From Trametes villosa (lineage: Eukaryota > Basidiomycota > Agaricomycetes > Polyporales > Polyporaceae): a stretch of 64,000 nt of DNA. The notes under the pieces are model-generated. The model saw only the letters and a list, made by a program, of their open reading frames with translations. It was not told the DNA's origin and made no database searches. The position numbers and the translations under genes were made by a program. Positions 31,425-47,914 of the stretch are shown here, one piece after another (the first letter of the stretch is position 1; every line of letters begins with the position of its first letter). The DNA lies in the NCBI GenBank assembly GCA_002964805.2, contig PUDQ02000089.1, positions 124,001 to 188,000 on the forward strand. The letters run 5' to 3'.

Positions 31425-34400
31425 TCATCCGGTGAAGACCCGCGCTGTCAGGTAAAGCGTAGAGCCGGTGAAGCGCTGTACAGTCCTGGGATTAGCAGTG
31501 GGTGGGCTACGGATCACAAGGGGGCTCACGATGATGCTGGTAATGGCGACGAAGGCGAGGATGAAGGACATGTACGTCTTGGTGCGGCTGAATGTGTCGT
31601 TGCCGGTATCGGTGAACGTGTTCACCGCATCGCTACCGCCTAAAATCGCGACGAGCAGCAGGCCCTATCCGAATACCCGCGTCAACAACCCCTCCCTGTA
31701 CCGTACGGCGAGAGACCCAGCAACTCACGTTCGACAGGACCCACGCAAGCAAGACGTTCGTGCGCACGTTCGCGTAATAATCCTTCGCGAGCTGCTCCTT
31801 CTCGGCCTTGCTCGGGCCCGCGTTCGCGTTCGGGAGCGGCTTGCGGTTCTTGAGGTTCTCGAGCGCCTCCTCGTAGATGCTGTTCACGTCCGCCGCGTCC
31901 GTCGGCACCTCGAGGTCGACCTGCGAGTTGCTGTTCTGGATGACCGCGCCGAGGTCGGTGTTCACCTCGCTGTCCTGCTTCGTGCCCCAGGAGATCTGCA
32001 ACATGCGCCGCAGGTGAGTACAAGACGTAGCTGCCAGGGACATGTAACGCACATCGTCGAGGTTGGCGAACGCATAGCTGTGAAGAGATTGTATTAGGCA
32101 CAGCAAATTTCCGAGGGTTCAAACCGCCTTACATTTGCAGGATGTTCACGTAGCTCGGCGAGAGGAGCATATACGGTATGAAGCTCGTGAGCATGTGCCA
32201 CGGGTCGAACGAGAGGATGCTCGAGATCGCATACACTGCACATCCGCCGCGTCAGCACCCTGCTCTCCACCAAGACGAGGTACGCACGTACCTCCGTATG
32301 TCATGATAATGCTGAACAGCATGATGCGGTACGCGGACCCGCCCTGGTTCGCCGCCTGGATGGAGCACATGATGGCGCAGAAGATCACGTAGACCATCAG
32401 GACGGCGAAGATGATCGTGCAGATCTTGTACTTCCATCTCGCCCTACAAGACGGGTTAGCGACGTCCCTGCGAATAGTGCGCTGCAGAGGCTCACGCTTT
32501 GGGCTTGTTGCCCATGGAAAAGAGGAAGCATGCGATGACGAGACCGCCCATCAAGAACTACCCGCACAGGCGAGAGGATCAGCACCCTGTGGTCACAGCC
32601 GATATAGTACGCCCGCACCTGAATGACTGCGTTGAAGTACCGGATGCCCGGCATGCCAAACGCCTCGCTTTCCAGCGAAGAAGTCAAGATAACCTGAAAG
32701 CAGTGGTCAGCCGATCCATCACAGGCCGCAATAAGATGGTCGTATACTTACGAAGAACAGATAGAAATTCCCCTGCGCGTGTCACCATCAGTGCTGTCCC
32801 CTAGCGCAACCCGATCAAAAGGCAGCACTCACGACCGCAAACCATGCTGCAATCAGGTTGATCACGTTGTACACCGTCTCCACGACCAGCGCGAACTTCC
32901 GCCCAAGACTGTGGCCTGAGCGCAGAATCTGGCCCATGTGGGCGATGGCGTAAGTTGCGGCGAAGAACGACCCGTTCAACCAGCGACGGCGCTGATTGAT
33001 GAATTCCGGGAGAGCGTCGGGTACGTCCGTCTCCGCGATCGCGCTCTTGACATACTTCAGCACCCTGGGAGGACAGCGTCAGGGACTGTCGTCTGAGAGA
33101 ACTCTTGGAGAGATAGGCTTACCAGTTTGAATTGGCTTTCGCGACCAGCTCGAAACAAAGGATACGCTGGAATATGGAGTATTAGCGAATATCAGGTCTG
33201 GGCATTGCCCTAACGATGTCGACATACGTCTTCGGCGAGATCTAGGAGTCGGCCGGTAAGCGTAGGGCTGCACCGTGAATATTCTGCACTTACACATGTT
33301 GGACGTAAATATGTCCGTGTCTCGTCCGTGCAGGACCTCGCCCTTAAAATACGATGCGAGTGGGCCCGCGCCGTACTTGTCGTTCTGCAGCGCGATGTAC
33401 CTGTAGGCAGAGAACGCGCCCGGCTGGCATGTACCCTCGTTAGCCCGGACAGTCCATCCTGATCTAAGACAGGCATACCAAGACACTAATGTACCCGAAA
33501 AGGCTCTCAGTCGGCTTGTCGAGGATAGTCGAGATCTTGTACTCGAAGTTCTGTGCGGCAACTGCAGGGGTGGCGGTCAACCTCCGGCTGGGGCGATAAG
33601 CTTCAAACGCACCTAGTGGGTTTAGTAGGCCACGCCAATGCTTTCCCTTATAAGCCGCAATCTCGCCACATGCTCCGGCGACGTTCGAGTTTACGTCGAA
33701 CGCCTTCCAGAGATGGTATATGCTCTTGCTCCCCGGCATCGTCCCCACATCCAGGAGCACACACACGTTCGGCTACCACCCGCCCCGATCAGTCCCTTCT
33801 CCCCTCGACATTGCGCGCGCTGAGAGACGCACCTGAAGCAACTGCCCAAACGCGTTGAAGAACCACCTGTGCGAGTTGATCTTCTTCTGGTTCTTCTCCT
33901 TCATGCAGAAGATGATCTGCGTCGGCACGATGCCCTTGTCCGGATACTTGAAGTGCAGGTTCTCGTCTAACCCGAACGTCGTCGTGTACTCGAACAGGTG
34001 CGCCGTCACCGGCTTGTTGTTCACCATGTTCTTCATGTGATCGCCCGGCTGGTACACGCCGAGTAGTGTCAGGCAGTCGAGCACGCGCGGGTGCACCTTC
34101 TTTCGGCCGTCTGCGACAATGCATACAACCACCTGCGAGTGGGAGGGTTAGTGGGCAGTTCATATGAACGCCCGAGGGACGCACCTTTTTCCACGCGTCT
34201 TGCCCCCATGTGCGTGAATTCTTGCGCGAGCACAGGTGTGCAATGTTGCGCATCACGCCGTACATCGTCCGGCAAAAGAGGACCTCATCCTCCTATCAAC
34301 CCGTACCAGATCAGCACTCCCCGCAAATACAGATTCGCGCCGTGCACGCACATTATACATAGTAATAACAATAAACAGCTCCGTCGTGCGCCGCAACTCG

Positions 34401-35711
34401 TTCTGGCGGAGGAAGAACCCGCGCCGCTCGAACTCGTCCGGGTCGCACGTCACCGCCGTGTACCGCGTCTTCGTCGTCTCCGGCTCGCCACGGCGCGGGA
34501 GCACGAGCTTCGGCGGCACCGTCAGGTCGAGGACGAGGTTCCCGTTCGTGAGCTGTACCCGCTTCTTAGTCTTGTGCCGCCGCAGGACGCGCCCCGCCGG
34601 TGCGGGCCCGAAGTGTCGCGTCGTCACTGGCGTCTCGGGCTCCGCGAGCGAGGAAGAGGTCGTGAGCGAGACCTTTTCCGCGTCCGCGGGCTCGGACTGG
34701 GCGCGCAGGCGGGCGAAGGAGGGTGATTGGTCGAGCCCGGGGCGCTCGTTTGTGGACATCTGCGAGAGCGGTCGCCGTTGCGGGGATGGGGTGTAACCTG
34801 TGTAGTGCACGCTGCCGTCCCCGCTGATCTGGTAATCTTCGTCTTCGACAGCCGGCGTGGGAGAGCGCGAACGCGGTGGCCGGTACGATGCTCGCGAAGC
34901 CGTCCCGGAGGCGTACGCCTCTGTATCGTGGTTGAAGTGGTCGATGCCCGTGTCCTTAGGGTACACGCCGGACGTCGGGCGGTCCTGCGGCGCGTACGAC
35001 CACCCTGTCGGGTTGGATGGCATGGAGGTGACTGCGCTATATGCGGACACGGGCCGTGATGGCGCTGCCCAGGAGGTGCGTGCCGGGTTGTAGTACGGCG
35101 GATTGGGATCGTACAGGCTGGACCGGGACGTGTTCTGGGCAACGAGCGCAGGAGGGTGGGACGCTGGTGGATGCGGGACGGGTTGGTGGTATACCGGCGC
35201 ATGAGTGTCAGCGAAAGGGTCGTCTTCGGGAGTCTCGTACATGCCCTCCCATTCCAGCGGTTCTCCGGAATTGATCGTGGGCAGAGGACCGTATTCGATT
35301 TGCTGTGCTTGCCTGTGGACAAGAGATTGGCGTCAGCGAGCATTGCGTGTGCGCACACGACAGCGATACTCACCTTTGGCCAACCATTATCACAGTGGAC
35401 GCGCCAGACCCTGTGCTGCTCCTAGAAAGAGACGCGCGCTCGCCAGCCAAAGAGCCCTCCTCCGACGCTTCTGGCACAGGCGGCAAAGAGGGGTGGCGAA
35501 CAGGAGATGTACGCATGGTAGAGAAGCGCTGCTGCACATTGCTCACAGCCACATCAATCCTGTCGTATTCAACGGTAGAGTCCAGAGAGGGAAGAGGACC
35601 GTCAGACAGAGCATAGCGCATGATGGAAGAGCGGGGAGGCGGAACATCGCTGTAGTCTTCATTCTCGTCGTTGAGCGGGGTATACGTGAGGGGTCTGCGT
35701 CGGCCAGCCAT
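31425..35711 (-). CDS. Chitin synthase, division 1 (class I-III type)
   Basis: Eighteen exons from 35711 down to 31425: 35711-35374, 35312-34352, 34292-34185, 34132-33833, 33772-33613, 33561-33479, 33423-33294, 33241-33228, 33166-33123, 33064-32833, 32772-32752, 32693-32619, 32557-32496, 32443-32292, 32235-32133, 32077-32053, 31995-31729, 31664-31425; 1104 residues. A disordered N-terminal region of about 320 residues precedes the chitin-synthase N domain and the GT2 catalytic core. Landmarks are [18 protein letters not shown], the EDR motif split across exons 8/9 ([13 protein letters not shown]) and the product-binding QRRRW. Several TM helices follow. The enzyme polymerises UDP-GlcNAc into wall chitin at the plasma membrane. 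Exon 8 is only 14 nt, exon 11 is 21 nt and exon 16 is 25 nt; each is needed to keep the conserved sequence in frame. Divergent from the EF-hand/ZZ gene. Confidence 0.95.
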
Positions 35712-39200: not shown

Positions 39201-40662
39201 CGGCATAGGGAATGACGGCCTTGTTAGCTTCAGCATCACAACCCACGCATTGGACGGTACGATCACCGGCAGCGGCAAGGACGCTTGCGGTCCCTTTACC
39301 ATCCGCGGCTTCGTCGCCAGCGACGGCCAAATCGCGTTCATCAAAGACTATGCGATGCTTCAATCGGGCGAGAAGGTGTTCTGGTACTACGAGGCGGAGG
39401 CACAGGAAGACTTGCTAGCCATCGACGGGTCCTGGGGTCTTCCTCGATCCATCATACAGGCACGCCGCCACGCCACAGCACCGACCTCGGACGGGCCAAC
39501 TACGGAGATCATGCCCCCGCCGGGATCGAAGACCGACGCACTCGTGGTCCTGGGCTCGTTCACCCTCCAGCGCCGCCCAGTCGAGTACTTCCTCGCCTGC
39601 CCGCCCGCCGAGGACTTCGAGCGCAACCGCCCCCGTGCGCTATGGACGCTCGCCATCAACGTCGCATTGCACACCGCCCGCGTAAGGTCGGGCAGACTGG
39701 ACTGGGCCGCCCTGCGCGCACGCCGCGAGCTGCGCGAGCGGTACGTCGAATTGACTGTGAAGCGCCTCGCGAACAGGTATCGACTGGGCGCCCAAGAGGA
39801 GCGCGAGCGCGAGGAGCTGCTGAAGGAGATCCACCCGGACGACCTGCACCTGTGGGGTGCGATGAGCTTATTCCGTCGCGCGCGCGAGGTCTCACATCGG
39901 TGAGCTCTTTGTTCCCTGCACAGGATACTCTGCTGAACAGTAATCTTGTTGGTAGGTCATACTCCTGCAGCATATGTCGTTCCGGGCCCATATTCGGCGG
40001 CCGGCTCGTCTGCGCCGACTGTACCACGGATGTGGGGAAAACGACTGACTTTTGCCATGATTGTTTCTCGGACCAAGGTCACGCCCGGCAGCCTTCGCAC
40101 GCGGTGGTACAACTCCGCTCGACACCGCTCCGCATATACCTGCTCGCAATCCTGAACGCGGCGAAACGGATGTCTACGCACTGCGCCGACAACAACCCTG
40201 CTCACGATGGCTCACCATGCGCGGAGTGCCAGTGCGCGATCAATCCCACGGACGCTTACTGGTGCTGCTTGGACTGTGAATGTGAGTGTGTTTTGCTCTG
40301 TCTACCTATTCAGCTACGGTGCGGACCTGATCGAGATTTCGCTCGTAGCGTTCACCTACGTCTGCGCTGCTTGCAACACTCGGATCGAGCACGAAAAGCC
40401 GTGGCTGCGCGAGCGACTTCGCAGCGCAGACTACGCACAGATACACGACTGGTCACACTCGCTTGTCCTAATCCCTGCGGCTGAAGGCCCAGCGCAGGCA
40501 CGGAAGCAAACGTCGATCGAGGATCGGCTGGCGCTGCTGGAAACGAGGCTCGATGGGAAGCTGGCTGATGTGAACGCCCGCTTGACGAGTTTCCAGAGTA
40601 TACTGGCTCAGGTGCTCTCAAGGCTGGGGTCTCTTGGTGTGTCTGGGAAGAGCGGCGAGTAA
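36260..40662 (+). CDS. Large EF-hand and ZZ-type zinc-finger protein (basidiomycete family)
   Basis: Thirteen exons: 36260-36596, 36662-36776, 36830-36975, 37036-37577, 37629-37655, 37710-38023, 38079-38110, 38169-38509, 38561-38717, 38775-38836, 38896-39899, 39956-40281, 40349-40662; 1238 residues. The N-terminal 390 residues are helical (VSLFKAALTLELTRREND, CDMMSILTLLKRV) and recall a four-helix adaptor or MLKL-like bundle. An EF-hand loop DNDVSSFVTVTE sits at D470-E481, followed by FTSARPAAWSLPRWIAYW. Then come a helical region, a W-rich beta domain, another helix bundle, a ZZ-like finger (CSIC...CADC...CHDC) and a second Cys cluster. I know similar EF-hand proteins only from mushrooms; their role is unknown, and calcium binding is inferred from the loop. 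The first intron uses a GC donor (GCAAGT at 36597). A further 51-bp intron at 36375-36425 is possible, since its removal also keeps frame. Confidence 0.82.
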
Positions 40663-41161
40663 GTAGGTAGCGGAGAAGCTGTAAGAGAAGCGAAAGGGAT
40701 ATGTTCACTACTTGGGATAGTTGCGAGTAACTTGTCGATGTAATGACCATGGCCTGATGACTATTAATGACATTACAGTGTGCTTACGTCGGGTTGTTAG
40801 TGACGATCATAGTCCGCATTTATGTAGATATATGTCTGCCTTACAACTTCCACACCGTTTGTGCGATGTGGCTGACGCTCTCTTCAACACTTTCGCGTCC
40901 TCCCACCCCTTCTTGTCTGTGCTCCCCTTGAAGAGCTCCAAATCTCAGGGTCAGAGGTGGGTGGCAAAACCCGGCATTGCACACGATATGTCATCGGAAA
41001 TCCTATGAGCAATGGGGGGTGCCTTGAGTCCTCTGACAACCGCGGGATCCGCATCTATCACCATACGATACCTCTATCCTGACCAGTATCTCCGTGCTCC
41101 TCGCCAATGTCCCTGTTGGCTCCCGCGGTCAAACCGTGATGACGGCGCGCAGAAGCCACGA
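40663..41161. other. Spacer before the peptide array
   Basis: No gene seen. It contains the 3' UTR of the EF-hand/ZZ gene and the far promoter of the first peptide gene. I looked specifically for another Met-Gln signal-peptide reading frame and found none. Confidence 0.5.
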
Positions 41162-41169
41162 CATAAAAT
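41162..41169 (+). promoter_or_regulatory. TATA-like box of P1
   Basis: CATAAAAT, 71 bp upstream of the P1 start codon. Confidence 0.5.
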
Positions 41170-41232
41170 GCCTCGAAAGCCCCTGACCTCTGGCATCACG
41201 CTTCTCAATTGTCGCGAGCCGCTTCTCCCGCC

Positions 41233-41376
41233 ATGCAAATCATCAACAAGCTTCTCTTCGTCGTTGCACTCTTCGCCGCTACGGCGGTCGCTCGTCCGGG
41301 CCCTGCGGAAGCTCTCCGCTGCACGGTGTGCTCGGCAGGTTTCTGCCCTTGCGGAGACCTGGTAGTCAGCCAGTAA
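41233..41376 (+). CDS. Secreted 4-Cys micro-peptide precursor P1
   Basis: 47 residues. The signal peptide MQIINKLLFVVALFAATAVA (cut probably after position 20) is followed by about 27 residues starting RPGPAEAL. The cysteine pattern is C-x2-C-x4-C-x-C in CTVCSAGFCPC. P1 and P2 share MQIINKL and PGPAE. Ten nucleotides after the stop is a GTAAGC donor, with an AACTGAC branch site near 41417 and an acceptor at 41453 or 41457. I do not recognise the family. The four closely spaced Cys suggest two disulfides or metal binding. Expression is likely, given its own TATA box and the conserved architecture, but unproven. Confidence 0.75.
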   Translation: MQIINKLLFVVALFAATAVARPGPAEALRCTVCSAGFCPCGDLVVSQ

Positions 41377-41889
41377 CGGGAACATGTAAGCCCATCAACA
41401 GCCCAGAAGAAGTAATGAACTGACGACATGCTTGCCTCGGCCCGTCACTGGAGCCAGGGTGGAGGCGGTGGTGGATGAATCGATGACCCAGGGCTCGTTG
41501 TTGTAGAATTCGGTAGACCCGTCTGAACCGCTGGAATCCTACTCCCTCGAACGACACGACGACGCTCGGCTCAGATTATGAAATCGAGTCGAGTATACAT
41601 ATTTGAGTGCGACAACCAAAGGCGGCATTCGCTATGCCTATCGACTTCGTATTGGGCTAGTACCGAAACCCGCGACCCATCAGTGGTCGGCGCCAGCAGC
41701 GCCGACGCTTCCCGCCAATCCCGAAGATACACGCCAAGGACGGTAGCAGTAGGTGCCTGCCCAACTCCTGACAGGAAGTTGACACCGCGCATCTGATGTC
41801 TTTCAGGGGAGCGAGAGTGATGGGTGCATCCGCTCTCCTTGCTATGTGCGTGGTCTCGAAGCCAGGTCAGCAGGGTGCCGGAGAGACGC

Positions 41890-41896
41890 TATATAA
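41890..41896 (+). promoter_or_regulatory. TATA box of P2
   Basis: TATATAA, 79 bp upstream of the P2 start codon. Confidence 0.6.
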
Positions 41897-41968
41897 CGAC
41901 GGCAGGGTTGAACCCCGAGCTCGATAACACGCCTTTCCGCCGCTACGAAACACACCTCCACTTGCACG

Positions 41969-42109
41969 ATGCAGATTATCAACAAACTCGTCCTCGTCGC
42001 GGCCCTCTTCGCCGCAGCTGTCATCGCCACCCCAGGCCCTGCAGAGGAAATCCACTGCGTCTGCGTGACGGACCCTTGCCCATGTGCGAAACAGGTGTCC
42101 GGCTTGTAA
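41969..42109 (+). CDS. Secreted 4-Cys micro-peptide precursor P2
   Basis: 46 residues: signal peptide MQIINKLVLVAALFAAAVIA, then TPGPAEEIH and the core CVCVTDPCPC (C-x-C-x4-C-x-C), ending AKQVSGL. The core is almost identical to that of P3. The predicted 3'-UTR intron is 42120-42170 (GTAAGC donor 10 nt after the stop, CTGAT branch, ATAG acceptor). No dibasic processing site, GPI signal or CaaX box. Family unknown. Confidence 0.78.
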   Translation: MQIINKLVLVAALFAAAVIATPGPAEEIHCVCVTDPCPCAKQVSGL

Positions 42110-42555
42110 GACGAAGCGGGTAAGCCCCGGCTAGGTCAGGGAGAGACGTGAAGCTGATGAATGCTTATAGTACTACCAGGTCATCTCACGCTAGGTAGAT
42201 TTGAGGAGCGCGAATGGGAATGGTGAAGGGAACAGCATGGGTTGTGGGTATGATGTCGATGTACCGTTGGGTGAAGAGCTGCATTACGTTTCCTCGTCCA
42301 CACCTGAGAGTCAGCGGAGTGAGACTTCTCATGAGTTGAAGAGGGCCAATGCTTGCAGTCGCATGCGGAGCTTCTCGCAAAGATGAACTCCGGGTGCTGC
42401 GATCACAAATACCTGCTAAGGAGATTCTGACATCTGACATACCGCGTCCGTCATCTCCCAGGAGAGAATACTGACATGCGCCTCCGTTGTCGCCGGAAAG
42501 CCACGGTCATCCACAGACCGACGTCAATTTGAACGCTGGGCCGACGGAGGTTCAG

Positions 42556-42564
42556 TTAAAAAGG
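42556..42564 (+). promoter_or_regulatory. TATA-like box of P3
   Basis: TTAAAAAGG, 76 bp upstream of the P3 start; weaker than the others. Confidence 0.35.
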
Positions 42565-42631
42565 CCGTTATCATGAACATCATTACTCACAACGCACCCC
42601 AGTCAGCCTCCTCGAACGCCGTCTTCACATC

Positions 42632-42787
42632 ATGCAGATCGTTAACTTGAACAAGCTCATCCTCGCTATTGCCCTCTTCGCCGTTGCGGCAGTTGCTATC
42701 CCGCATGAAGCAGAAATCCCTCATTGCGTCTGTGTCACGAGCCCCTGCCCGTGCGACGGAACGGGAAGGCTTCCTGACCTGAAGTAG
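42632..42787 (+). CDS. Secreted 4-Cys micro-peptide precursor P3
   Basis: 51 residues. The signal peptide (MQIVNLNKLILAIALF...) is two residues longer than in P1/P2. The mature part begins near IPHEAEIPH and has the core CVCVTSPCPC followed by DGTGRLPDLK. The predicted 3'-UTR intron is 42795-42848 (donor GTAAGA, 7 nt after the stop; ATCTGAC branch; CACAG acceptor). A close relative of P2 by core and position. No known domain. Confidence 0.77.
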   Translation: MQIVNLNKLILAIALFAVAAVAIPHEAEIPHCVCVTSPCPCDGTGRLPDLK

Positions 42788-43545
42788 CGGGGAGGTAAGA
42801 GAGTGCATTAATGATGGAATGCATCTGACATATGCGTGCGCACCACAGTCGCTTTCGAAGCCTTGGATCCCGAGGAGGGCGGCGGAGAACGAAGTTATAA
42901 GGGATGCAATAAAGCGCGTGTAGTTGTGTTTCGCCGTTTCTCCGCGAAACATGCCACCGTAGTAGTGCCCTCGTTTCGAAGGCGTGAGGGAAGACAATCG
43001 GAAGAATGTTCTAGTTGCCAGCCGCGGAATGTGTGTGCATGTCGTAGTGGATCAGGACGAGGTTTCTACTCGTCCACGTACCGTGAGAGGCCCCAATGCA
43101 CAACTTGGCAATCTTTGTCCTGTATGAAAACATGCCGTGAGCGTTCACATGTGTATGATCATGCCCCCAGGAGTTACATGATAGCGAGCAGGAGTTTTGA
43201 AGTCTCCGGTACCTAGATACGCCGCGCCACGGAACATCACCGCTGTCGCATCGACGTGCTGACGACGCGCCCCTGGACATGGACGATGGATACGATACCC
43301 GTGGTCTCCGGAGGAGGCCTCATGTGACCGCGTGTCCTGTTGCTTGAGCAGGCCGCCGAGCCCCGCTGTGCCGCGGCGCTCGCATTAGCAGCTGTCGATC
43401 TACTGACGTCGCTTAACCTCCTATGCGGCGGTTTCGAGCAGGACGTTGTACTTACAGAGGCCATGGCTTCCCTGTTTTCCTGTAGCGAGTACGACGAGGG
43501 CGGGCCTGACGCAACCGTCGGACGTTGTGCCCACTGTCCCTATTG

Positions 43546-43553
43546 CCTATAAC
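43546..43553 (+). promoter_or_regulatory. TATA-like box of P4
   Basis: CCTATAAC, 67 bp upstream of the P4 start codon. Confidence 0.5.
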
Positions 43554-43613
43554 ATGCGCCTCGCAATACACGCACCGTTCATTTCATTCTCCAACTCATC
43601 GTGCACAGACAGC

Positions 43614-43760
43614 ATGCAGCTCCCCACCATTACCAAAGCCCTCGCTGTTGTCGCCATCTTCGCCGCGCTCGTAGTAGCTGCACCTACCCCCCTGCCTAGG
43701 CCCGGCGAGGAATGTGTTTGCCGCGGAGCGTGCCACTGCCTCCCGCCGCTCGCAGAGTGA
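43614..43760 (+). CDS. Secreted 4-Cys micro-peptide precursor P4
   Basis: 48 residues. Signal peptide MQLPTITKALAVVAIFAALV, then a Pro-rich spacer (APTPLPRPGEE) and the core CVCRGACHC (C-x-C-x3-C-x-C), ending LPPLAE. The predicted 3'-UTR intron is 43790-43855 (GTGAGT donor 29 nt after the stop, AACTGAC branch, GTAG acceptor). It has one residue less between the Cys pairs than P2/P3. The CHC could bind a metal or form a disulfide; nothing known matches. Confidence 0.75.
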   Translation: MQLPTITKALAVVAIFAALVVAAPTPLPRPGEECVCRGACHCLPPLAE

Positions 43761-44533
43761 ACGACGATAAGCCTATCTAAAGGACGGAGGTGAGTGAAAT
43801 CATATTGCGCGCGTCCGGAAGGGCGTGTACCTCGGCGCCCGTAACTGACATGTAGACGAGTTGACAGGTCTCCGCCCTTGCTTGATGAGGGTACCCGGAG
43901 TGTGAACGTCCCGGGGTAGATAGGGTGCCTGCGTCCCGTGAGACAGGTAGCATGCGGTAGGGGGTCGGCACGGACGCGAGGTGGAGACGGTGCACTTTGG
44001 ACGGCGGGATGGTGGACAGGTGCTCGGCATACCGTAGGTGGCGCTGCCGTGGAATGAATTTGTCATGGATGTTCGTGGTTGTTACCAGTTGGGCTACTAT
44101 TGAACATAGTCCAGGAATCTATGCACACTTGTTGATTGTCATAGCACGCTGGCGTCATGGGTCGGCTCATCTACACTGGCGACGCAAGACTAGTTAAGCG
44201 TGATGTCATTTCGAGGAACAGCCTTAGGCTCACGAGTGGTAGCGACTATCCCCCGGGCTCAAGTCCGGCGAGCGCCCTCAGCGGGGAATACTTCCCGCCG
44301 ACTCGTCAGGAGTTTGGCTCACTCCCGACGGTCTCACGAATCTGCGTGCTTGCGGTATAGATAGCGGGTCATCTCACCGAGTTGTATGGGTTTGAACGTG
44401 AAGTTTGAATAGTCGGCCATCTCGTATCTGCACCTGAGCAGGATGAGTATGTTTGTCTGATGACTATCCAAGAATACATACGCATCTGGGCCCGACAACC
44501 AACTGTACACGAGAGCCGGCCGCCGACGGGCGA

Positions 44534-44543
44534 GCATAAAACG
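44534..44543 (+). promoter_or_regulatory. TATA-like box of P5
   Basis: GCATAAAACG, 77-86 bp upstream of the P5 start codon. Confidence 0.5.
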
Positions 44544-44619
44544 CATGCGGGGCGACATTCTAAGCTTCACTACCTCCTACAGTCAACTTCGCATCGCAGC
44601 GACTTGGGAAAACCTCACC

Positions 44620-44751
44620 ATGCAGATCATAACGAAATTCCTCGTCCTCGCCGCGCTCTTCGCCGCCTCCGTAGTCGCCGTACCGGTCGCCTCGCCGGAG
44701 ACCGACGTCCAGTGCATCCACGGCACTCCGCCCAACTGCACCAACCCTTGA
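44620..44751 (+). CDS. Secreted 2-Cys micro-peptide precursor P5
   Basis: 43 residues, the shortest member. Signal peptide MQIITKFLVLAALFAASVVA, then VPVASPETDVQ and a single-loop core CIHGTPPNC (C-x7-C), ending TNP. The predicted 3'-UTR intron is 44791-44863, whose donor is preceded by AACTCGACGCAG, a string also found at the P6 donor and partly at P7. P5-P7 share the VPVA/APVA start of the mature region. An Asn-Cys-Thr sequon overlaps the second Cys. Function unknown. Confidence 0.76.
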   Translation: MQIITKFLVLAALFAASVVAVPVASPETDVQCIHGTPPNCTNP

Positions 44752-45163
44752 GGGATAAGAACTGTATGGGTAACCTGGAACTCGACGCAGGTGAGTTTGG
44801 TGAGAATGAGGAGTGCGCAATGAACTGACCGCGCGAGGCGCCGTAACTGTCAATACTTGGCAGGTGCACGGAATTGCGAGGCGGTTTGAAGGGTACGGGT
44901 AGTTTGAGTATGGCGTTATGAGACCGTGTGGGGCTTGGAGCAGGAAAGGAGAAGGAGGTTCGCAATGTGAAGGTTCTATATCTGGATGGCGACGGCAAGT
45001 TGTTCAGTATCATCGCATTTCAGTATCGAAAGCCACGGCCTGTCCACGCCACCAGTGTAAGTTCCGAATACCGAGTGGGACGTCGTCGCCCGACGTGGGC
45101 GGTGCGCTCGTACGACGTGCTCATGGTATCGTAAACGCTCGAATGTTGCGACCAGCGGGCGGG

Positions 45164-45169
45164 TATAAG
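45164..45169 (+). promoter_or_regulatory. TATA box of P6
   Basis: TATAAG, 76-81 bp upstream of the P6 start, in the sequence context GGGTATAAGG shared with P7 (GGGTATAAAG). Confidence 0.55.
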
Positions 45170-45244
45170 GTGCATCTGGGGCGCCAACGTCTGGAGACAT
45201 CGCTCAGTCCAGTCCACATCACGCCGACGCAAACCTACCGTACC

Positions 45245-45406
45245 ATGCAGATCGTCCCCAGGCTTCTCATCCTCGCCGCCCTGTTCGTTACATCCACGGT
45301 CGCCGTGCCGGTGGCGCAGTCTGAGGCGGATGGGCTACGCACGCGCGAAACCTCCGCCTCTTGCAAGGATCCTGTAGAGTGCGGGTCGTCGTTCGCGGCA
45401 GCCTGA
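45245..45406 (+). CDS. Secreted 2-Cys micro-peptide precursor P6
   Basis: 53 residues. Signal peptide MQIVPRLLILAALFVTSTVA, then VPVAQSEADGLRTRE and the core CKDPVEC (C-x5-C), ending GSSFAAA. The sequence closely parallels P7 (APVAQPEADGLRIRS, CQNPVEC). The predicted 3'-UTR intron is 45418-45475 (GTGAGT donor 11 nt after the stop, AACTGAT branch, TACAG acceptor). Arg-x-Arg before the core could be a processing site, releasing a peptide of about 20 residues; this is inference. Confidence 0.77.
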   Translation: MQIVPRLLILAALFVTSTVAVPVAQSEADGLRTRETSASCKDPVECGSSFAAA

Positions 45407-45881
45407 ACTCGACGCAGGTGAGTTAAATCATCGAACTGATCATGCGCATTTAGCTCACCACCCGACACGGTACAGATTCAGTCGCCAATATCGACGACGA
45501 GATGCACGGGACGCGACCGCGCGCTGACTTCGCGGATGCGACCTTGACGCGAGAAGGGGGTGAATAGAGCAGCGTTAGTACGATGAGGCGGGACCTGGAG
45601 TGTAGGCTCACAGATAGCTTGAGAAGTAGCATTGTAAGCCTCGCATGGCATAGAGGGGTCCGGAGTGGGGAAGCGGTTAGCAAGGTTACTGTATATCTGG
45701 ATTTACGAAACTGTCGAGCATCACCACAACTTGGAATCGAAGGCCGGCCTGTCGACGCCGTTGGTGTAAGTTTCGAAGACCGAGCAGTGGCCCGTGGGGC
45801 GTCGTCGCCCGACGTGAGCTAACGTCCACACAATAGGCCCAGATGTCTGCGAGACGCTCGATGTAGACGGCAAGGGGTGGG

Positions 45882-45888
45882 TATAAAG
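45882..45888 (+). promoter_or_regulatory. TATA box of P7
   Basis: TATAAAG, about 90 bp upstream of the P7 start codon. Confidence 0.6.
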
Positions 45889-45971
45889 TCCGCCTGTGAC
45901 AGCGACGCTTCCGAATCAAGACCTCATCACTTGGTCAAGTCCACGTCGCACCGACGCCCGCTCGCCGCACC

Positions 45972-46124
45972 ATGCAGATCCTCGCTAAGCTCGCCATCCT
46001 CACCGCGCTCTTCGCTGCTTCGGTGGCAGCTGCGCCAGTCGCGCAACCGGAGGCCGACGGGTTGCGCATCCGAAGCGCCCCTGTGACCTGCCAGAATCCG
46101 GTGGAGTGCTCAACGCATCGTTGA
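45972..46124 (+). CDS. Secreted 2-Cys micro-peptide precursor P7
   Basis: 50 residues. Signal peptide MQILAKLAILTALFAASVAA, then APVAQPEADGLRIRS and the core CQNPVEC (C-x5-C), ending STHR. It is a recent duplicate of P6 in both coding and upstream sequence. Five nucleotides after the stop, the CAGGTGAGT of its sisters has become CAGGCGAGT. Splicing would then need a GC-AG intron (46130-46184, CTGACT branch, CCAG acceptor) or would fail. The coding frame is intact. Confidence 0.77.
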   Translation: MQILAKLAILTALFAASVAAAPVAQPEADGLRIRSAPVTCQNPVECSTHR

Positions 46125-46785
46125 CGCAGGCGAGTTATGGAATCGTGAGGAGTTGCGCATCGAGCTGACTGCATCACATGCCAGTAGAGTTGCCGATGTC
46201 TTCGAGAAGCACCACTGCGACTACGTGATGACTTGTCGGGTTCAGTCTTGGCGGCGCGGATGGGTGTCAGTAGGGTACCGTTTGTACGATGAGGCAGCGC
46301 CCTGCGTGTGGTACCGGGAGCCAACAGCCTGTTTGTGTAATCGCCCATATTGAGCGTTCTTGGCGAGCTGAATCATCACTAGACTTGACATCGGCGCTGG
46401 TCCAGTAAAATGAACGACAGACACAGGATACGCACCATTTGCTGTCGCGAAGTTGCGCCCCTGTTTGCTGATGGCCACTGACGATGTCAGAACATACGGC
46501 CCTCAGACTGGCGATGCGGGAGTCCAGGTGACTATACCTGTCAAATGTCACTCAGCTCCACAATATCACAGTCTGCGCGCATCTGTCATGTTGAACAACA
46601 CACGTACCTGTCCATAGTTCTCACCCACGTAGCCAATGCACTCCGCCCTATTCGTCGATGGGTGTCGACCAGGGTTATGTATAGCTGCGCGTTCCTGGTG
46701 CGCATGCGTATTCCCGAGTACGAGAAAGGCGGAGCTATCGTCAGCGTGGTAGAAGTGACAACTCGTATATGCCGATAACCCACCG

Positions 46786-46792
46786 TATAAAG
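46786..46792 (+). promoter_or_regulatory. TATA box of P8
   Basis: TATAAAG, 79-85 bp upstream of the P8 start codon. Confidence 0.6.
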
Positions 46793-46870
46793 CGACTTGT
46801 CATAGCGTTCCGGCTGGCTATCTCTCTCAGCTGCCATCATCCACTCCCCGCACCAACTTCACGAACCATC

Positions 46871-47029
46871 ATGCAGCTCATCAACAAGCTCTTCTTCATT
46901 GTCGCCGTCCTGACCGCATTTGCGGCTGCTGTTCCCGCCACGGAAAACAGCCTGCTTGAGCCGGAGCTCGTACCGGCACCCTGCGTTGGCGCTCCCCCTC
47001 ACTGCCTACCTCCTCGGGCGGAGGCGTAG
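46871..47029 (+). CDS. Secreted 2-Cys micro-peptide precursor P8
   Basis: 52 residues. Signal peptide MQLINKLFFIVAVLTAFAAA, then VPATENSLLEPELVPAP and the core CVGAPPHC (C-x6-C), ending LPPRAEA. It combines the INKL start of P1/P2 with a two-Cys core like P5. The predicted 3'-UTR intron is 47052-47106 (GTAAGT donor 22 nt after the stop, CTCACC branch, CTCAG acceptor). Last member of the array; no further copy was found downstream. Confidence 0.76.
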   Translation: MQLINKLFFIVAVLTAFAAAVPATENSLLEPELVPAPCVGAPPHCLPPRAEA

Positions 47030-47492
47030 GACTTCATGACGGCTTTAGGAGGTAAGTGCAATGTGCGTTCGGTAATACACGGCTCGAACGCTCACCGCAA
47101 CCTCAGGGGATGTCGAGTCGTGAATCGACACGAACCAGAAGGCAATTGTAACCCGTACGAACTCCTGGGGCTACAGAGTGTAGTAGGATTGTCGCTCGGG
47201 TCCATACTTGGAAGTACTTGTTGGGTTGTGTTCGCGCATGTCGTTAGCCATTCTGTTTTCAATCGGCCATGGTCAGTAGCATCGTGTCTCAGTGTGTGAC
47301 AGTGATCTGGAGTCGTAGAACGCGTCTTAGTCGCTGTAGTCGCTGGCATCGCGCCCGGTAATGGTACTTTGCAACGGTTCATGCTTTGCGCGCCCTGCCG
47401 GGCAGCGGGTACGGAAGTTGTACTCCACAGAACCAGGTGAGTAAAGAAACATGCACGCGGCGGAGAGCTACTAGTCGAGTACGTCGCAATCG

Positions 47493-47914
47493 ATGGGAGT
47501 ACGTGGTGGTCGGGAAGAGAGCGTCGATGGCGAGGCACTGAAATCGCCTCGGCTATCGCGACCGTCACAAGCACGTGAGCGGGCTCCGGATATGGGTCAC
47601 GGTGGTGCCTGCGCGTCTGACGGGAGCTCTTCGTGGGATGGCGTGACGGCGAACTTCGAAGGCAGCGACGACTCCCACCACTGGTCCTTGCCCTCGGAGA
47701 TCCAGCAGCACTCGCAGGACTCGCACAAGAGCCTAGAAGTCCTCCCGGTAAGTCTACGCTCGGCGATCGTGGCATACCAGCGGCATCTAGTAGTGGGACT
47801 CCTCGCGCGGGCCAGAACTTAGTAACCCTCCAGAGCACGCTTAGTGATCGCATTGGCCTCGGGATCGTCGCTTCCTTCATCTTAGCTACCGTTCTCACCA
47901 TGTTCAACAGTTGA
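47493..47914 (+). CDS. Candidate small tail-anchored membrane protein
   Basis: Two exons (47493-47747 and 47816-47914) join in frame across a 68-bp intron (donor GTAAGT, acceptor CCAG) to give about 117 residues. The first part is hydrophilic (FEGSDDSHHWSLPSEIQQHS). The second exon ends with a single hydrophobic helix, RIGLGIVASFILATVLTMFN, right at the C-terminus. No family is recognised. A start at 47592 is equally possible. It may instead be 5' untranslated sequence of the amidohydrolase gene just downstream. Low confidence. Confidence 0.3.

Follow-up and report, generated by a model that had tools for sequence, protein, structure and literature searches.

What do eight very small, apparently secreted peptides do in the polypore Trametes villosa? 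On the plus strand of the window (the whole 64,000-nucleotide stretch of contig PUDQ02000089.1 that was analysed), positions 41233-47029 hold eight ORFs of 43-53 residues that belong to one family. The answer we favour, tentatively and with a probability of about 35%, is that the family consists of disulfide-closed extracellular signals, encoded one peptide per gene.

Organization of the array

A sequence-only reading had placed eight plus-strand ORFs in this region, and all eight are there. The features are listed below; P0001 and P0002 are relatives outside the window, described in the next section.

41162..41168, plus strand: gene 1 TATA-like box CATAAAA, 71 bp upstream of ATG
41233..41376, plus strand: gene 1, 47 aa precursor, four Cys (CxxCx4CxC)
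41386..41457, plus strand: gene 1 predicted 3'UTR intron
41890..41896, plus strand: gene 2 TATA-like box
41969..42109, plus strand: gene 2, 46 aa precursor, four Cys (CxCx4CxC)
42120..42170, plus strand: gene 2 predicted 3'UTR intron; alternative acceptor +9 nt
42555..42561, plus strand: gene 3 TATA-like box
42632..42787, plus strand: gene 3, 51 aa precursor, four Cys (CxCx4CxC); window gene nearest P0002
42795..42848, plus strand: gene 3 predicted 3'UTR intron; meets the relaxed rule only
43548..43552, plus strand: gene 4 TATA-like box
43614..43760, plus strand: gene 4, 48 aa precursor, four Cys (CxCx3CxC)
43790..43855, plus strand: gene 4 predicted 3'UTR intron; alternative acceptor +12 nt
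44535..44541, plus strand: gene 5 TATA-like box
44620..44751, plus strand: gene 5, 43 aa precursor, two Cys; resembles first half of Trametes gibbosa P0001
44791..44863, plus strand: gene 5 predicted 3'UTR intron
45164..45168, plus strand: gene 6 TATA-like box
45245..45406, plus strand: gene 6, 53 aa precursor, two Cys
45418..45475, plus strand: gene 6 predicted 3'UTR intron
45882..45887, plus strand: gene 7 TATA-like box
45972..46124, plus strand: gene 7, 50 aa precursor, two Cys
46130..46184, plus strand: gene 7 predicted 3'UTR intron; GC donor
46786..46791, plus strand: gene 8 TATA-like box
46871..47029, plus strand: gene 8, 52 aa precursor, two Cys; resembles second half of P0001
47052..47106, plus strand: gene 8 predicted 3'UTR intron

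Each gene does have the TATA-like box that had been claimed for it, at a distance of 66-90 bp and not 67-97 bp upstream. Among random 45-nt stretches taken from the window 1.5% contain such a box, and the short intron predicted directly after the stop codon of all eight genes is found at 3.5% of random sites; because both rules were drawn up after inspecting the sequence and the genes are paralogs, these rates argue against chance and do not represent eight independent events. The predicted introns are absent from the sequence-only reading and are an addition of this follow-up; position 47106, given there as the end of the array, is the final base of the predicted gene 8 intron. In the 300 nt upstream, no k-mer of 6-8 common to the genes exceeds background. 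Rfam has no match in 40500-47900, and RNA genes were rejected on this ground. The locus probably comprises eight genuine secreted mini-peptide genes in tandem, each with its own promoter and predicted to be transcribed and spliced.

A family outside annotation

Leave-one-out profiles, each built from seven of the genes, rank the left-out member right after those seven in all eight cases (E 4e-17 to 3e-5), with the best non-array fragment at E 0.0023 to 0.4. A profile of five extra-window sequences, themselves found with window queries and two of them from the same genome, recovers all eight genes (E 3e-21 to 7e-8). No ninth array member emerged from profile searches of six-frame window fragments (next E about 0.21-0.23), and a looser tblastn of 13 queries against the window gave weak hits outside the array, the best at E 0.003.

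Two dispersed paralogs, with the cores CSCSGKTCSCSD and CSCTGRTCSCSDQN, lie on other contigs and share the CxCx4CxC core of genes 2 and 3, which is also present in P0002, a relative encoded on a further contig. P0001 is the 86-residue hypothetical protein BC628DRAFT_1423293 of Trametes gibbosa, in which two family members are joined head to tail; to our reading it is a gene-model fusion, and its record names no family. A profile search of the protein collection with 13 sequences gave, among the 8000 candidates retained, the two proteins that an earlier profile search had already yielded, and the two dispersed paralogs alone gave 62 candidates, none of them related at E 10 or below. Seven of the 11 matches to a start-region pattern are family members; of the other four, the two that were read, L014 and L015, look unrelated, and L012, the weakest match of its search, looks unrelated too.

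The description of the family as unrecognised stands: none of the 13 sequences scanned has a significant Pfam match (E up to 10), NCBIfam, a library of prokaryote models, has no significant match for the family, and the PDB has no match for the one paralog queried. That annotation misses such genes is likewise borne out, the one named relative obtained in searches of the protein collection being P0001, which looks like a fused gene model. Since short ORFs are frequent in this G+C-rich window, the frames might be chance ORFs within a repeated non-coding unit. This is extremely unlikely, as extra-window profiles recover the genes, pS exceeds pN in the signal peptide in all 28 paralog pairs, TATA boxes and intron signals accompany every gene and the sequences are conserved in another species.

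Precursor architecture

All eight precursors begin with Met-Gln-(Ile/Leu), in agreement with the sequence-only reading, and have a hydrophobic stretch that ends in Ala and is followed by X-Pro. The 20-residue signal peptide proposed for every gene appears right for six, while that of the other two would have 22 residues; with cleavage at these sites the mature part would span 23-33 residues, where about 23-34 had been estimated. Four genes have four Cys in the mature part and four have two, as described, and these may form disulfides. His adjoins Cys in four window genes (2, 3, 4 and 8) and, outside the window, in P0002 and each half of P0001. The charge of the mature part is 0 to -4 in all 13 sequences, none of which contains a dibasic Kex2 pair (KR, RR, KK), and by inspection the eight window genes and two paralogs each have a single core per precursor and no internal repeats.

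Comparison with known peptide systems

The family had been set apart from hydrophobins, defensins and CaaX pheromones, and these distinctions hold. Class I hydrophobins have eight Cys with two CC pairs, against two or four Cys, no CC and no Pfam match here. Defensins have 6-8 Cys, and the best Pfam match (Defensin_big, E 0.04) concerns one of the eight genes and scores 14.4 bits where the cut-off is 25. Basidiomycete lipopeptide (a-type) pheromone precursors end in a CaaX box and lack a signal peptide, and this class was rejected: all eight N termini are signal-peptide-like, seven genes have no Cys at -4, and gene 5, ending in Cys-Thr-Asn-Pro, has Cys at -4 yet no canonical CaaX box.

The genes could also descend by truncation from larger secreted proteins such as hydrophobins, with an old coding intron now in the 3'UTR. 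Truncation would leave an intron just past the stop codon, and a stretch of this genome, which we read as a class I hydrophobin, is weakly matched (E 0.0048) by the signal peptide and first Cys stretch of gene 7. The introns of that hydrophobin, read by eye, lie far downstream of the matched stretch, on which account truncated hydrophobins were rejected, and Pfam gives no hydrophobin match; the short forms, being conserved in another species, appear to be functional in their present state, and a remnant origin is very unlikely. A look for RiPP tailoring enzymes, weak because exons are split and only 30 of the 220 window ORFs (stop-to-stop, at least 110 aa) were covered in a part-search against Pfam, gave one match, a chitin synthase N-terminus, and one below-cut-off match to DUF2398 (E 0.0041).

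KEX2-processed repeat proteins (KEPs) and ascomycete alpha-type pheromone precursors share with the family a signal peptide, X-Ala or X-Pro before the peptide and a short released peptide; in some alpha-type pheromones two conserved Cys stand a few positions from each other, a further likeness, and alpha-like precursors occur in Basidiomycota (PMC6339444). They differ in having a dibasic Kex2 site, between the repeats in KEPs and before the STE13 signature in alpha precursors, which is present in 0 of 13 sequences here. KEPs moreover carry peptide repeats within the precursor, whereas the array has one peptide per gene and tandem duplication, and were rejected on both counts. STE13 substrates often have repeated XA or XP dipeptides (PMC6339444), and this signature of alpha-type precursors is found in the family, standing behind the signal peptide and not behind a Kex2 site.

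In-register X-Pro/X-Ala dipeptides after the signal peptide sum to 28 over 13 sequences, against 17.6 when shuffled (p 1e-4; p 2.5e-4 with eight representatives). Pro at +2 past the signal peptide is common among fungal secreted proteins; for that reason the first dipeptide was held fixed while the rest of the first ten residues was shuffled, and the dipeptide signal is in part generic. The runs vary among paralogs from one to four dipeptides, with one only in four of the 13 (genes 3 and 8, the L011 paralog and P0002). We infer a new feature here, in that the dipeptides would resemble those of STE13-trimmed fungal pheromones, but without Kex2 sites.

Conservation and selection

Between gene 5 and the first half of P0001, compared by eye, 14 of 20 signal-peptide residues are identical and 15 of 17 in the predicted released peptide; the three leading dipeptides differ at every X position and retain every Pro/Ala. 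Gene 3 and P0002 share an identical PHCVCVTSPCPCDG core and agree at 76% across 45 residues. In both orthologous pairs, compared along their whole length, conservation of the mature part equals or exceeds that of the signal peptide, and, judged by these alignments, mature cores are kept across species.

The sequence-only reading had counted dN/dS near 1 together with frequent frame breaks in related strains as a sign against the genes; all eight frames, paralogs of one genome, are intact. Mature pN/pS is 0.39-0.60 in the six closest of the 28 pairs in this genome (1-2, 1-3, 2-3, 5-6, 5-7 and 6-7, selected after the count) and 0.6 to 1.4 in the remaining 22, which are near saturation. Mature parts are under constraint in the close paralog pairs. 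In these 22 pairs the three codon positions differ to about the same extent (0.61, 0.60, 0.62), and pN exceeds pS in seven, a pattern that fits saturation or diversification alike.

Such diversification would suit competitor- or host-directed peptides (antimicrobials, toxins or effectors) kept as a diversifying array, and the peptides are small, secreted, Cys-containing, tandemly duplicated and divergent among paralogs. A parallel is Ssp1 of Pleurotus, a small secreted protein strongly induced in interspecific encounters and part of a secreted orphan gene family in a saprotrophic (white-rot) basidiomycete, although Ssp members are about 18 kDa against precursors of 43-53 residues here (PMC7105643). 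We nevertheless consider this role unlikely: the mature parts, neutral to acidic, are not cationic, in neither orthologous pair are they less conserved than the signal peptide, and no defensin match rises above chance.

Possible copper binding

The CxCx4CxC core of genes 2 and 3, P0002 and both dispersed paralogs suggests another function, that of secreted mini-copper-thioneins, in which CxCx3-4CxC would bind Cu(I) extracellularly or along the secretory pathway, either to buffer copper or to provide it to secreted copper enzymes. Members with two Cys would be derivatives, some with His as an extra ligand, consistent with the His residues beside Cys noted above. Neurospora and Agaricus copper-thioneins are very short and read CXC-X5-CXC-X3-CXC-X2-C, with CXC pairs 3-5 residues apart, and Tremella units read CXCX3CSCPPGXCXC (PMC4755600), with which gene 4, reading CVCRGACHCLPP, may be compared.

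Against this stand several observations, and we regard the thionein role as rather doubtful. The shortest fungal thioneins named in that source have seven Cys, and the terms 'signal peptide' and 'secreted' are absent from it (PMC4755600). The array peptides, by contrast, combine a signal peptide with four Cys at most (CXC-X3/4-CXC), two in half of the array, and so lack the seven-Cys pattern of family 8 metallothioneins; neither Pfam (13 sequences, E up to 10) nor the PDB (one paralog) gives a metallothionein, and non-Cys residues are kept across species beyond the needs of chelation. Metal-response motifs are not enriched in the 500 nt upstream of the genes (MRE 11 against 9.8 expected, ACE1 2 against 3.6, MAC1 0 against 0.3).

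A proposed role as processed extracellular signals

In the signalling model that we favour, each gene would yield one precursor, from which signal peptidase would remove residues 1-20 or 1-22. An STE13-type dipeptidyl aminopeptidase may next trim the X-Pro/X-Ala dipeptides successively, leaving a neutral to acidic peptide of 17-30 residues, with a single closing disulfide for genes 5-8 and two for genes 1-4. The paralogs would have diverged in the mature part while at least two stayed near-constant between species, which fits peptides that each match a particular partner. The signals would act between hyphae and be multiplied by gene duplication, not by repeats within one precursor.

To our knowledge, basidiomycetes have few known secreted peptide signals that act outside mating; an example is Qsp1, which as far as we know has no Cys and is not array-encoded. 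Qsp1 is a quorum-sensing signal of the basidiomycete Cryptococcus, a likeness to the family being that it is a short secreted peptide matured from a pro-peptide by a protease (PMC7537855). The sequence-only reading had left the role open; the charges of the 13 mature sequences shift it away from cationic antimicrobials and, without deciding, the data shift it towards processed extracellular ligands or metal binders. A bolder proposal, which we hold to be improbable, is a previously undescribed peptide-hormone-like system of polypores: a locus whose genes would each encode a different disulfide-closed, STE13-trimmed ligand, several of these being conserved across species, and would all retain the post-stop intron as a possible switch of transcript stability (retention versus nonsense-mediated decay).

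If the peptides are signals, mushrooms would have a family of non-mating peptide messages that could readily be synthesised and tested; if they bind copper, secreted thioneins would occur in relatives of fungi whose copper oxidases are secreted. Under either reading, the locus illustrates how annotation can overlook a gene family that is conserved.

A conserved tandem family that annotation misses

Eight plus-strand open reading frames of 43-53 codons each follow one another between positions 41233 and 47029 of the window and align as a single family, with 30-57% identity to gene 1. When the whole window, as 1732 six-frame fragments, was scanned with a profile that included the eight genes themselves, exactly these eight were singled out, the next fragment having an E-value of 0.21. 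When each gene was omitted in turn, the profile of the other seven recovered it in all cases, with E-values from 4e-17 to 3e-5, the best-scoring fragment outside the array having 0.0023 to 0.4. Five sequences from elsewhere, two of them in the same genome and all originally picked up with queries from the window, also gave a profile that recovered all eight, with E-values between 3e-21 and 7e-8 and the next fragment at 0.23. The eight-gene tandem family of short peptides proposed in the sequence-only reading is thus borne out.

Two relatives came to light when 5.8 billion proteins were screened for short words in common with the family; the dispersed paralogs described below, used alone as queries, found none there. 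The first, Trametes gibbosa protein BC628DRAFT_1423293 (P0001, 86 aa), reads as a gene-5-like followed by a gene-8-like precursor, the halves having been matched separately. The second (P0002, 49 aa) is close to gene 3. The T. gibbosa record is probably a gene-model error that fuses two separate mini-genes, which suggests that family members adjoin on one strand in this species too and agrees with the earlier expectation that such genes escape automatic annotation. The family is real and conserved, and annotation overlooks it. No description of it was found in the open-licence literature among the matches listed (titles and abstract openings), which is not proof of absence.

Dispersed members and genomic neighbourhood

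The window, positions 124001-188000 of contig C87, belongs to an assembly of 46.7 Mb in 140 contigs. Queries against this assembly were the peptides of array genes 1, 2, 4, 6, 7 and 8, those of both dispersed paralogs, both foreign relatives, and one start-region pattern (11 matches, against 2 in a reversed control). The array and two dispersed genes were found; the searches ran exon by exon and scored the best candidates only, so that the genome holds at least two dispersed members:

Contig C10, position 2163430 (in stretch L010): dispersed paralog, intron and ORF by reading
Contig C82, position 557867 (in stretch L011): dispersed paralog, intron and ORF by reading

In both, as read, a coding intron (56 and 69 nt) separates the signal peptide from the core; they encode 49 and 45 residues, with the C-terminal ends CSCTGRTCSCSDQN and CSCSGKTCSCSD. 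One further match (E 0.0048), made via the signal peptide, was to a gene that by eye looks like a class I hydrophobin (stretch L009, minus strand, about 1090-1629); its signal peptide resembles that of gene 7. Stretch L012 was rejected as a family member (E 1.3, no resemblance on reading), and of the pattern matches four fall outside the family, the two of these that were read seeming unrelated.

The array is flanked as follows:

34253-35332, minus: chitin synthase N-terminal domain (Pfam PF08407, E 2.5e-25), the start of a gene reading leftwards, beyond the ZZ-like gene
To about 40.7 kb, left of the array: long gene whose end is Cys-rich and ZZ-like, by reading
From 47981, right of the array: amidohydrolase-like gene with a membrane-anchor-like start, by reading; no Pfam match in the exons tried

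Nothing in the neighbourhood examined, with 30 of 220 window ORFs given to Pfam, points to a mating-type locus, to the handling of copper or to the tailoring of peptides. Around the dispersed copies, ORFs were read as glutathione-transferase-like, PrpF-like and phosphoglucomutase-like, and beside the C10 paralog three glutathione-transferase-like ORFs stand in tandem (stretch L037, 280-3860, by eye).

Promoters and a predicted post-stop intron

Every array gene has a TATA-like box, as the sequence-only reading had it, at a measured 66-90 bp before the ATG and not at the 67-97 bp given there; such a box occurs in 1.5% of random 45-nt stretches. Each gene also carries compact fungal-type intron signals after its stop codon, starting 6-40 nt past the stop and spanning 51-73 nt:

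41386-47106, plus: post-stop intron signals of all eight genes, by the relaxed intron rule

Under the first rule seven of the eight passed, and all eight did once one bound (donor to branch point) had been relaxed after gene 3 was seen; random window sites passed at 3.5% both times. As the genes are paralogs, the eight occurrences of box and intron are not independent. One dispersed paralog passes the relaxed rule, the other only with a weak GTC donor allowed. Since 3'UTR introns are the least conserved intron class in Cryptococcus (PMC5006051), retention of the predicted post-stop intron across an array whose mature peptides have widely diverged is unusual. The predicted intron could be a regulatory switch, for example via intron retention or decay, or a relic of a longer ancestor.

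Constraint, cysteines and possible metal binding

All 28 paralog pairs have a higher pS than pN over the signal peptide. For the mature part, pN/pS is 0.39-0.60 in six pairs, the closest ones and picked after the count, and 0.6 to 1.4 in the other 22, with pN above pS in seven. Differences in these 22 pairs are spread evenly over codon positions (0.61, 0.60, 0.62); they are therefore near saturation, compatible with relaxed, diversifying or old purifying selection. Across species, gene 5 and its T. gibbosa counterpart agree at 14 of 20 signal-peptide positions and, in the peptide predicted to be released, at 15 of 17 (by eye), gene 3 and P0002 are 76% identical over 45 residues, whole Cys core included, and gene 8 matches the second T. 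gibbosa half at 10 of 11 positions of CVGxPPHCLPP (by eye). The mature part is hence constrained at non-Cys positions too.

The cysteines follow CxCx4CxC in genes 2 and 3, P0002 and both dispersed paralogs, CxCx3CxC in gene 4 and CxxCx4CxC in gene 1. Genes 5 and 8 keep the outer pair only (CIHGTPPNC, CVGAPPHC), and genes 6 and 7 have C-x5-C. Nested disulfides (first to fourth, second to third Cys) would fit the joint loss of the inner pair. Gene 5 ends in Cys-Thr-Asn-Pro (44737-44748), as does its T. gibbosa relative, with Cys four from the end and without a canonical CaaX. That the family binds metal is an unlikely reading, kept in play because the CxCx4CxC core would equally suit one half of a copper-thionein of fungi (PMC4755600), and His adjoins Cys in several members; moreover, CVCRGACHCLPP of gene 4 (43713-43748) is similar to CXCX3CSCPPG, with which the copper-thionein repeat of Tremella begins in the same source. 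However, the array peptides have few cysteines and a secretory route, metal motifs are not enriched upstream of their genes, and the conservation of non-Cys positions likewise speaks against it.

Proposed processing and possible role of the peptides

With a putative cleavage point set from the (-3,-1) rule, Pro stands at +2 of the mature part in all 13 sequences (the eight array genes and the five from outside the window). X-Pro/X-Ala dipeptides run on in register past it, one to four per sequence, to a total of 28 compared with 17.6 in shuffles that hold the first dipeptide (p 1e-4; 2.5e-4 with eight representatives). In the leading dipeptides of gene 5 and of its T. gibbosa relative the X residues differ and Pro/Ala are kept. 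A Kex2 dibasic site is present in none of the 13 mature sequences. Spacers for STE13-like dipeptidyl aminopeptidases are known from alpha-type pheromones and some basidiomycete KEX2-processed repeat proteins (PMC6339444), and the array peptides share this dipeptide pattern. An STE13-like enzyme may trim the X-Pro/X-Ala spacer of the precursors. The best reading of the array, at a probability of roughly one in three (0.35), is that its genes may each encode one processed peptide serving as an extracellular signal.
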